A stretch of DNA of 43,126 nucleotides from Phycisphaerae bacterium (GTDB lineage: Bacteria; Planctomycetota; Phycisphaerae; Phycisphaerales; SM1A02), in assembly GCA_002689385.1 (NCBI GenBank), contig NZFX01000012.1, positions 1 to 43,126 of the forward strand, given 5' to 3'. The notes under the pieces are model-generated. The model was not told the origin of the DNA and ran no database searches. It saw nothing but the letters and a program-made list of their open reading frames with translations. Shown here piece after piece: positions 23,350 to 35,153 of this stretch. Numbering within the stretch: the stretch's first letter is position 1; each line of letters starts with the position of its first letter. A program made the position numbers and the translations under genes.

Positions 23350-23747
23350 GGAGTTGATATAAATCCATACTTGCTTCCTCGATTGTGCTGTTTTTGTATT
23401 TATGTAATGTTCAACTGTTTGATTAAACGTTTTTTTGTAAATTCTTACCATGTGTGTAGCGCTCCAGCTTACGTGATTCCTGTTGCCTTCCAAGGCAGTT
23501 CCCCTATTGCCATAAACTTGCGGAGCGAGGATCAAGGAGCCTAAATATTTTCTAGAGGCCTGCTCAATGCTCAGTCCACAAGTCTAGTGGCACTTCACAT
23601 ACAACCCATACGGCACAAGGTTCCTTTCGGTTCTCGGACGTTTTTGTACCAATCCAAAAAAATACCCAAAACCACATTTTTAGCCCAAAATAAGTCTCTG
23701 AGGAATTAATCATTTTTTTGAAGGGGCACTGAAGCAGGTTTTTGTAC
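23350..23747. other. 398-base region without a supported gene
   Basis: It lies between the start of the 102-residue gene and the end of oppD, both on the minus strand. Next to 23349 is a possible -10 box (minus TTATAT, 23362 down to 23357). TGCCTT-CC-AAGGCA at 23484-23497 is a perfect inverted repeat. Several A-runs and T-runs occur in 23640-23720, but I see no stem-loop good enough to call a terminator for the opp transcript. Short open frames here look like chance. Confidence 0.5.
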
Positions 23748-34203: not shown

Positions 34204-34761
34204 TTACATCGGCTTGTCGCCGACTGTCTTGTCGTACACGGTCAATAGTTTTTCCTTATCGAAAATCATCTCTTCGCGAGAGTGCCCAACGATTTCATAA
34301 CGCGGAGTAAGTTCAATTGCATCACACGGGCATGCGTCTTCGCACATGCCACAGAAAATACATTTCAACTCATCAATTTCAAATGAGACCGGGTATTTTT
34401 CTCGGTCTACCCATGGCGCTTCGCCAGCAACGATCTCTATACAGTTTGCGGGACACGCAGTTGAGCACATAAAACACGCAACGCATTTCACACGCCCTTC
34501 GATGTCGCGATTTAAACGGTGTACACCTCGAAACGTTGAGCGCTCTTGACCACCATCAAGCACGTCCCGATCATCCCGTTTTTGTTCTGGATACTGCACA
34601 ACCCAGACGTTTTTCTTGTTCGAACCGCCCCGCCCCATATTGCCAAGGCAATGACGCAAAGTTGTTCCAAGACCCCGAAGAACGGCTGGAACGAAAAAAT
34701 AATCCGATGCGGCCATGGGCTTTGGGGTGACGTCAATGATGTACTCTTTGTCTTGGGGCAT
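34204..34761 (-). CDS. nuoI: NADH-quinone oxidoreductase subunit I (NuoI-like 4Fe-4S protein)
   Basis: A 185-residue protein with two 8-iron ferredoxin motifs: CVACFMCSTACP (cysteines 93, 96, 99, 103) and CIFCGMCEDACP (134, 137, 140, 144). The flanking sequence (amphipathic N-terminal helix, ELTPRYEI after cluster 2) matches NuoI/Nqo9, which carries clusters N6a and N6b in complex I. The gene stands alone with no other nuo gene in the window. The start ATG at 34761 is preferred; the frame stays open back to a GTG at 34803 that lies inside a palindromic repeat. Confidence 0.88.
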   Translation of the reverse strand: MPQDKEYIIDVTPKPMAASDYFFVPAVLRGLGTTLRHCLGNMGRGGSNKKNVWVVQYPEQKRDDRDVLDGGQERSTFRGVHRLNRDIEGRVKCVACFMCSTACPANCIEIVAGEAPWVDREKYPVSFEIDELKCIFCGMCEDACPCDAIELTPRYEIVGHSREEMIFDKEKLLTVYDKTVGDKPM

Positions 34762-34770
34762 AGCCACGTA

Positions 34771-34776
34771 ATTATA
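34771..34776 (-). promoter_or_regulatory. Consensus -10 box of nuoI beside a palindromic repeat
   Basis: Minus-strand TATAAT (34776 down to 34771) is a perfect -10. It ends nine bases before the nuoI ATG, so the mRNA leader would be two or three bases. The palindromic element at 34778-34804 begins one base upstream, so any -35 would be inside it. Confidence 0.5.
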
Positions 34777-34777
34777 G

Positions 34778-34804
34778 GGTGTCTGACCCCAGGAGTCAGA
34801 CACC
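34778..34804. repeat. REP-like palindromic element A
   Basis: GGTGTCTGAC (34778-34787) and GTCAGACACC (34795-34804) are perfect 10-base complements around a CCCAGGA centre. A related element lies 63 bases away. The GC-rich palindrome, copied nearby and placed between genes, resembles REP elements moved by RAYT transposases (inference). Confidence 0.65.
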
Positions 34805-34867
34805 GCCCAAAAAAAGGTATTGAGTGTTGATTTACAAATGAGTATGCAGAACCCTCAGCGCTAGGAG

Positions 34868-34908
34868 GGTGCCTGACCCCAGGAGTTAGACACTGGGGGT
34901 CAGACACC
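34868..34908. repeat. REP-like palindromic element B (decayed copy plus an extra arm)
   Basis: GGTGCCTGACCCC (34868-34880) pairs with GGGGTCAGACACC (34896-34908) over 13 bases with one mismatch. Between them is AGGAGTTAGACAC, a decayed version of the right arm of element A. So B looks like one A-type unit plus the right arm of another. Element A's GGTGTCTGACCCCAGGAG is matched by B with one change over 18 bases. Confidence 0.65.
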
Positions 34909-34910
34909 TG

Positions 34911-34916
34911 TACAAT
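34911..34916 (+). promoter_or_regulatory. Putative -10 box of the ATP synthase operon, leaderless spacing
   Basis: TACAAT ends six bases before the first ATG of the operon (34923), placing the transcription start on the start codon. It follows element B by two bases. TTAGAC (34886-34891), inside element B, is a possible -35 with a long 19-base spacer. No Shine-Dalgarno sequence is present. Confidence 0.45.
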
Positions 34917-34922
34917 GCCTCG

Positions 34923-35153
34923 ATGGCAAAAGATGCACAATCAGGTCGACTCTGGCGATTATCCGCAATGGGATTCACCTTCGTCTCTATGATTCTTGCT
35001 GGTGGATTACTCGGGTGGTTTGTATGTTGGATTCTGGGCCAAACAAGCAATGAGCGAGTTTTCATCGTGTCGGGCGCTGTGTTTGGCATCGTCTACGGAA
35101 TGATTGATTTTATTCGAGATGCACTCAAAGCAGTCAACGAGGATGCGCAATGA
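34923..35153 (+). CDS. AtpZ/AtpI-type ATP synthase accessory protein
   Basis: A 76-residue protein with two membrane helices (about 15-38 and 45-65) and charged ends. The glycine-rich helices and the ending MIDFIRDALKA fit the F0F1-ATPase gene 1 (AtpZ/AtpI) family, thought to help ion supply or c-ring assembly. It is the first gene of the ATP synthase cluster and overlaps the next by four bases (ATGA). Confidence 0.75.
   Translation: MAKDAQSGRLWRLSAMGFTFVSMILAGGLLGWFVCWILGQTSNERVFIVSGAVFGIVYGMIDFIRDALKAVNEDAQ

Follow-up and report, generated by a model that had tools for sequence, protein, structure and literature searches.

REP-type repeats, probably of the Y1 transposase class, between the divergent nuoI-like and ATP synthase promoters of a Phycisphaerae bacterium

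In a Phycisphaerae bacterium (assembly GCA_002689385.1, contig NZFX01000012.1), the gap between a nuoI-like gene and the divergent ATP synthase genes holds two GC-rich palindromes, which raises the question of whether they control two respiratory genes or are mobile DNA that landed there. We analysed the 43,126 nucleotide stretch that carries this gap (hereafter the window), the draft genome it belongs to (1.94 Mb in 87 contigs, 97.9% complete, 2.8% contamination) and related genomes. A preliminary description of the window had proposed that the palindromes resemble REP units moved by RAYT transposases and may have become part of the promoters. The likeness to REP units was supported, as the motif is dispersed in the genome and, in sister species, the unit adjoins Y1 (RAYT-type) transposase genes. 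The features of the locus, in window positions, are listed below.

34204..34761, minus strand: nuoI-like ferredoxin gene (ATG at 34761), best NCBIfam models NuoI, below their cut-offs
34771..34776, minus strand: -10 box TATAAT for the nuoI-like gene (same sequence in 10 of 12 genus genomes, TATATA in G004, TACAAT in G003)
34778..34804, no strand: element A, two inverted 13-nt units of probable REP type with a 1-nt spacer
34805..34867, no strand: A-B spacer of 63 nt; A, spacer and B together measure 131 nt, the layout of a REP doublet
34868..34908, no strand: element B, made of 13-nt units at 34868, 34882 and 34896, the second of the three being decayed
34911..34916, plus strand: -10 box TACAAT for the atp side, followed by the ATG after 6 nt, a leaderless spacing; box present in 12 of 12 genomes
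34923..35153, plus strand: gene for a 76-amino-acid protein that opens the ATP synthase side and is atpI-like in its position only

Direct reading of the sequence confirmed two related palindromes between divergent promoters. Element A is GGTGTCTGACCCC-A-GGAGTCAGACACC (34778-34804), its 13-nt arms being 92% complementary with 1 nt between them, and element B is GGTGCCTGACCCC-A-GGAGTTAGACACT-G-GGGGTCAGACACC (34868-34908). The distances first given were also right, with A 1 base from the nuoI-side TATAAT and B 2 bases before the atp-side TACAAT. The 18-base match noted between A and B is present, but it is the core of a longer one, found by a repeat search as 28-nt direct repeats of 93% identity that pair A with the first two units of B (34776-34803 and 34866-34893). 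B had been called a larger, decayed element; it is indeed larger, but it consists of three units and the decay lies in the middle one. The units start at offsets 0, 14, 90, 104 and 118 over a total of 131 nt, a layout by which A and B are probably one decayed, REPIN-like doublet. As for the flanking genes, the name nuoI is likely but not certain because the NuoI models, which do score best, fall under their NCBIfam cut-offs (106.1 of 212 bits, and 104.7 of 113.05 for TIGR01971). The 76-amino-acid protein gave zero family matches in Pfam and NCBIfam scans, and the ATP synthase a and alpha genes lie downstream of it.

When positions 34778-34908 were folded as single-stranded DNA, we obtained -24.4 kcal/mol against -14.84 (sd 2.65) for shuffled sequences (z -3.61, with 1 of 200 shuffles folding as well). 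Hairpins of this strength are what intrinsic terminators or insulators between two divergent units would offer, a reading that we regard as very improbable given that the palindromes lie upstream of both genes, that A on the plus strand is followed by GCCCAAAAAAA and not by a T run, and that the Rfam matches are far below their gathering scores (mir-378, 26.4 of 80 bits; SECIS_4, 18.2 of 38). Terminators were discarded on position and the absent T run, and a curated RNA on these scores.

Within the window, a 12-mer searched at up to 2 mismatches had 5 matches against 1.98 expected, and 9 of 100 shuffles gave as many, which is weak evidence of repetition, while the genome-wide count is strong. 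There, as the preliminary description had suggested counting, GTGTCTGACCCC with at most 1 mismatch had 41 matches against 2 for the reversed control, and exact 13-nt units numbered 26 against 0. From units with at most 3 mismatches, in steps of at most 18 nt, we assembled 29 elements (16 of two units, 7 of one, 4 of three and 2 of four); they include A and B of the window and a weaker unit from an extra stretch (L037:10719), and leave out one of the 41 matches, C53:27775, with two mismatches in its 13-mer. Units occur in both orientations and follow each other with a period of 14 nt in 28 of the 30 steps, the other two being 15 nt. Judged by crude ORF calls, the flanking ORFs are divergent for 16 elements, tandem for 9 and convergent for 3, and 1 is unclear. 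Five of the 29 overlap a called ORF, in three cases a long one (435, 283 and 354 codons), so that not every copy is surely intergenic. The genome nonetheless holds many dispersed and mostly intergenic copies of one palindrome.

We consider it very probable that the two palindromes are REP-type repeats which belong to the RAYT/TIRYT class (that of the Y1 HUH transposases) and landed between two divergent promoters, A and B together probably forming a single decayed doublet. The class would be RAYT/TIRYT in the broad sense rather than canonical GTAG REP, because the motif fits but the GTAG/CGTC tag is absent, as is the HTH of subclass 2.1 from the six congener proteins scanned. The units GGGGTCAG and GGGGACAG fit the motif GGGGWSAS (GGGG[AT][CG]A[CG]), which the accounts of Di Nocera (2013, PMC3733652) and Quentin (2018, PMC6006769) give for many repeats beside TIRYT Y1 transposase genes. 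In contrast, the GTAG tag (GT[AG]G at the hairpin foot) was found in 3 of 29 elements against 2.4 expected, and CGTC in 0 of 29 against 0.9 expected; an identity as GTAG/CGTC REPs was rejected on this absence. Six exact unit strings are absent from the text of the literature searched.

As in TIRtron/TIRYT systems, then, the units fit GGGGWSAS and repeats flank Y1 genes; some TIRtron/TIRYT repeats are described as dispersed families with dimers and clusters (PMC3733652; PMC6006769). TIRYT corresponds to TnpAY1 subclass 2.1 in the classification of Quentin (2018), where that subclass has a C-terminal HTH (PMC6006769), unlike the six proteins from congeners discussed below. The GTAG/CGTC REPs described by Di Nocera (2013) lie mostly between tandem and convergent ORFs, mainly downstream of genes (PMC3733652), whereas 16 of our 29 elements are between divergent ORFs. 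With the REP/REPIN and RAYT system, as presented by Bertels and Rainey (2011, PMC3116915), our repeats share dispersed intergenic palindromes, a cognate transposase beside the repeats in relatives and inverted doublets (104 or 105 nt in the congener G006 and, by layout, 131 nt here), but they differ in lacking GTAG, in their 13-nt units with a 14-nt period, in their low copy number and in that no transposase was found with them. The BIME/REPtron of E. coli, in the description of Corneloup (2021, PMC8266576), likewise has arrays of REP and inverted REP and an HUH transposase gene adjoining its cognate repeats; the repeats here, however, lack GTAG and are short perfect or near-perfect palindromes in place of the long bulged stems of E. 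coli.

A Y1 gene, which the preliminary description had proposed to look for, was not found in this genome with PF01797, NF047646 (E up to 1) or a profile built from six congener proteins (E up to 1), the search being one of a draft assembly (97.9% complete, 87 contigs) in which the gene may hide in a gap; at three sites where sister species carry a transposase gene the assembly is continuous. The genus, on the other hand, has ten Y1_Tnp genes, in 4 of 12 congeners (G006, G007, G008 and G011). Our unit, at up to 1 mismatch, lies near four of them (L124, L125, L126 and L133) and is absent at that threshold from the flanks of the other six. Among those six, L134 has a sister unit, GGGGACTGTCCCC, on both sides, while by inspection L127, L139 and L141 adjoin other palindromes and L132 and L135 other repeats. 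Palindromes of the form AAACTCACC..GGTGAGTTT, seen beside L141 in G008, also occur in several stretches of G011 (L094, L096 and L097).

All six congener proteins scanned have the Y1_Tnp domain, and none has an HTH domain at E up to 0.001 (two stray matches were to other domains). In an NCBIfam scan, four congener proteins reached 71-80 bits with REP_Tyr_transpos, whose cut-off is 80, and two proteins from other phyla 70.1 and 66.8 bits, so that this is the best family for all six, at 66.8-79.7 bits and under its cut-off. Outside the phylum, in the genomes picked out by a two-unit pattern described below, the unit flanks both sides of 2 of 15 Y1 genes (L137 of Pseudoduganella and L143 of Aquibacillus) and, at up to 1 mismatch, is missing from the flanks of the other 13. 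Unit counts there were 163 in Aquibacillus, 97 in an actinobacterial MAG, 44 in Pseudoduganella, 12 in an acidobacterium and 6 in Duganella, and the acidobacterium had units and zero Y1 matches. In a tree of 22 Y1 proteins from the 25 loci (L123, L144 and L145 left out) the genes with the unit in common did not come together, and the idea of one transposase clade per repeat sequence was abandoned.

Exact units occur at least once in 87 of 392 genomes of the phylum and at least 10 times in 9, this genome among them; others with many units are G113 (147), G116 (77), G067 (65) and G396 (39), the last from the same family. A wider pattern, GGNGWCWGWCNCC, was counted across the genus, where its reversed control gave 0-4. 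Genomes with Y1 genes had 115 (G006), 107 (G008), 31 (G011) and 5 (G007) matches, and those without had 31 (this genome), 15 (G004), 8 (G009) and 0-7 (the other six). Gene presence and copy number are thus loosely linked: this genome ties with G011, and G007 combines Y1 genes with few units. In a collection of genome contigs, from which this or near genomes may be left out, the exact A-type palindrome had 0 matches and a degenerate two-unit pattern was found in 6 stretches of 5 genomes; viral contigs gave 0 matches. We also observed units of the type GGGGTCAGACCCC, several in 26-nt steps, in the first 60-210 bases of the G011 contigs C15, C58, C60, C73 and C89, so that arrays of REPs may break these assemblies.

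The transposase-bearing G006 has 109 GGGGACWGTCCCC units (control 0), and 8 of its 17 elements examined are doublets of 104 or 105 nt, that is, two 27-nt palindromes about 50 nt apart. An inverted doublet, the candidate unit of movement, is thus seen in these eight elements of G006 and, in this genome, in the A-B layout only. A comparison of the A-B spacer with the eight G006 doublet spacers gave no clear similarity (z -1.7 to 2.4), and a shared origin of the spacers is not supported.

The comparisons between species cover draft genomes of one genus, in which ORFs and promoters were called crudely. This genome and 11 congeners have the nuoI-like and atp-side genes in divergent orientation, G008 being without a nuoI match, and both -10 boxes (searched as ATTGTA on the atp side and as TATAAT, TATATA or TACAAT on the nuoI side) are present in 12 of 12 genomes with the gene pair, 26 to 134 bp apart. 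What lies between them varies. G006 has two pairs of GGGGAC units adjoining both boxes, the doublet of another family; G009 and G001 combine the two families, with some of the units decayed; a single GTC-type unit is present in G012 and, in decayed form, in G004; G003 has arms of the type GTACAGGTGTACC and G011 GGCTC/GAGCC arms; G002 and G005 have weak TTGAC-like repeats only; and in the 26 bp of G007 and G010 no clear palindrome was seen. The promoter pair does not seem to need the palindromes, since the boxes persist while the intervening DNA varies or is free of palindromes. The motif is dispersed and its site at this locus is not conserved in relatives, the reverse of what the preliminary description had expected of an operator, and an operator of some regulator was rejected.

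The -35 candidate that had been pointed out in B, TAGACA at spacer 18, lacks conservation among the 12 genomes, in which -35 scores at the two promoters were not above shuffled expectation (3.0 against 2.8, and 2.8 against 2.8), and no -35 is visible in 17 repeat-free promoters of this genome. ATG starts cluster 6 nt after TAnAAT-like boxes in the loci of this genome (22 counts at a gap of 6 nt, in a tally that includes overlapping loci), a leaderless spacing.

A palindrome abutting a -10 box could still have been co-opted to supply the missing -35 function or an operator, and hence be found in many promoters. Element edges are indeed nearer to -10 boxes than expected: 10 lie within 5 nt against 6.1 expected (p 0.02), 12 within 8 nt against 8.2 (p 0.03) and 15 within 12 nt against 10.1 (p 0.008), with each element placed at random inside its own gap, gap length kept, for the 19 of 29 elements that have a promoter call on at least one side (the other ten left out). 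Moreover, divergent settings are in excess among the elements (16 of 29, against 6 of 22 gaps in the window; binomial p 0.0014), and B does offer TAGACA at a spacer of 18. The adjacency is mild, however, and mostly explained by short gaps; 3 of 29 elements lie between convergent ORFs; no -35 signal rises above expectation in the 12 genomes or shows in the 17 repeat-free promoters; and sister species replace or lack the palindrome here while the -10 boxes stay. We therefore find co-option improbable, and the earlier suggestion that the palindromes became promoter parts was not upheld. In G006, only 4 edges, contributed by 3 of the 17 elements, come within 8 nt of a -10 call. Given such few edges and the mild excess in this genome, insertion targeted at -10 boxes is not claimed.

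Comparison between species gives the repeats the appearance of mobile DNA that uses common landing places, rather than of switches controlling the two respiratory genes. We compared four sites of this genome in six congeners, and the nuoI-atpI gap in more. C22:17289 is occupied in G006 by a GGGGAC doublet of four units and in G009 by units of both families. G001 and G004 carry GTC-type units there, G002 and G012 palindromes of the GGTGCC type, and G011 the transposase gene L132; a second G001 contig has no repeat at this place. At C22:26510, transposase genes are found in G006 (L134) and in G008 (L124, where the contig ends and the left flank alone aligns well), with a decayed unit in G004 and none clear in G001, G009, G002 and G012. 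C22:32996 has GTC-like units, mostly decayed, in G004, G009 and G001 and none in G006 and G012, G002 being unalignable and so outside the comparison. At C21:31465, G007 carries the transposase gene L133.

When elements were picked in G006 blind to this genome (the 12 with listed places, from the 109 units), 3 of 12 (on C3, C7 and C21) fell at repeat sites of this genome and 9 matched none; congener transposase genes did so in 4 of 10 cases, at 3 sites, and 6 did not. With 28 sites among 1080 gaps (the window scales to 988), chance would give such sharing with p 0.003 for 3 of 12 elements and p 0.001 for 3 of 9 transposase sites; with 540 eligible gaps the values are 0.02 and 0.009, and with 270 gaps 0.12 and 0.06. 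The sharing of sites between species is likely real, but its significance depends on the number of gaps able to take an insertion.

One tentative possibility, which we would put at somewhat over one chance in three, is that RAYT-class transposases in the genus share a limited number of intergenic landing pads, often between divergent -10-only promoters, and that one site thus comes to hold different REP families, or the transposase gene, in different species; the enzyme would perhaps target REPs already in place or DNA that is single-stranded in open promoters. Another version of the REP reading, which we hold to be less likely than not, is that the sites are ancient and vertically inherited, with repeats rewritten in place (concerted turnover), for instance by transposase-directed conversion, when the transposase of a lineage changes the unit it prefers, which would leave different families at one site in different species. 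The two pairs of GGGGAC-type units by both -10 boxes in the G006 nuoI-atpI gap, again at C22:17289, would suit such rewriting, as would GGGGACAGTCCCC and GGGGTCAGACCCC, which differ by one compensating base pair, so that the hairpin is kept. Both families nevertheless stand side by side in the nuoI-atpI gap of G009 and G001 and at C22:17289 in G009, as if one had been inserted later next to an older repeat, an arrangement that would favour repeated insertion over rewriting; the spacers cannot be aligned, and repeated insertion at a favoured site explains the data equally well. In G006, L197 (C21) and L120 (C48) are the same locus with a GGGGAC doublet in one and a GGTGTCAGACACC unit in the other, reflecting strain mixture or duplication.

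Under the preferred reading, that of REP-type repeats landed between two promoters, a Y1 transposase would have copied single-stranded REP hairpins into gaps. The lineage would then have lost the enzyme, or the draft assembly misses its gene, and the remaining copies, as orphan repeats, would now be decaying. Insertion may have been tolerated because the promoters look -10-only and often leaderless, needing little just upstream, and the repeat most likely has no part in the expression of nuoI or atp. The mechanism of REP dissemination is called unresolved by Corneloup (PMC8266576). If the same gaps hold different REP families and RAYT genes, comparison by itself would suffice to test target choice, and REPs that persist where their transposase is missing show the fate of repeats after its loss. 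The case also cautions against taking such palindromes beside -10 boxes for operators.

Two further observations concern the window. A second dispersed intergenic motif, CTCTGAGGAAT-like, occurs at 23536-23747 and at L027, L030 and L036; it resembles the AGTCTCAGAGG repeats adjoining the Y1 gene L135 of G008 and is possibly another orphan REP family. At 1220-1335 we noted GGGGCCGTCCCC and GGGGCTGTCCC, perhaps decayed kin of the GGGGACTGTCCCC unit of G006.
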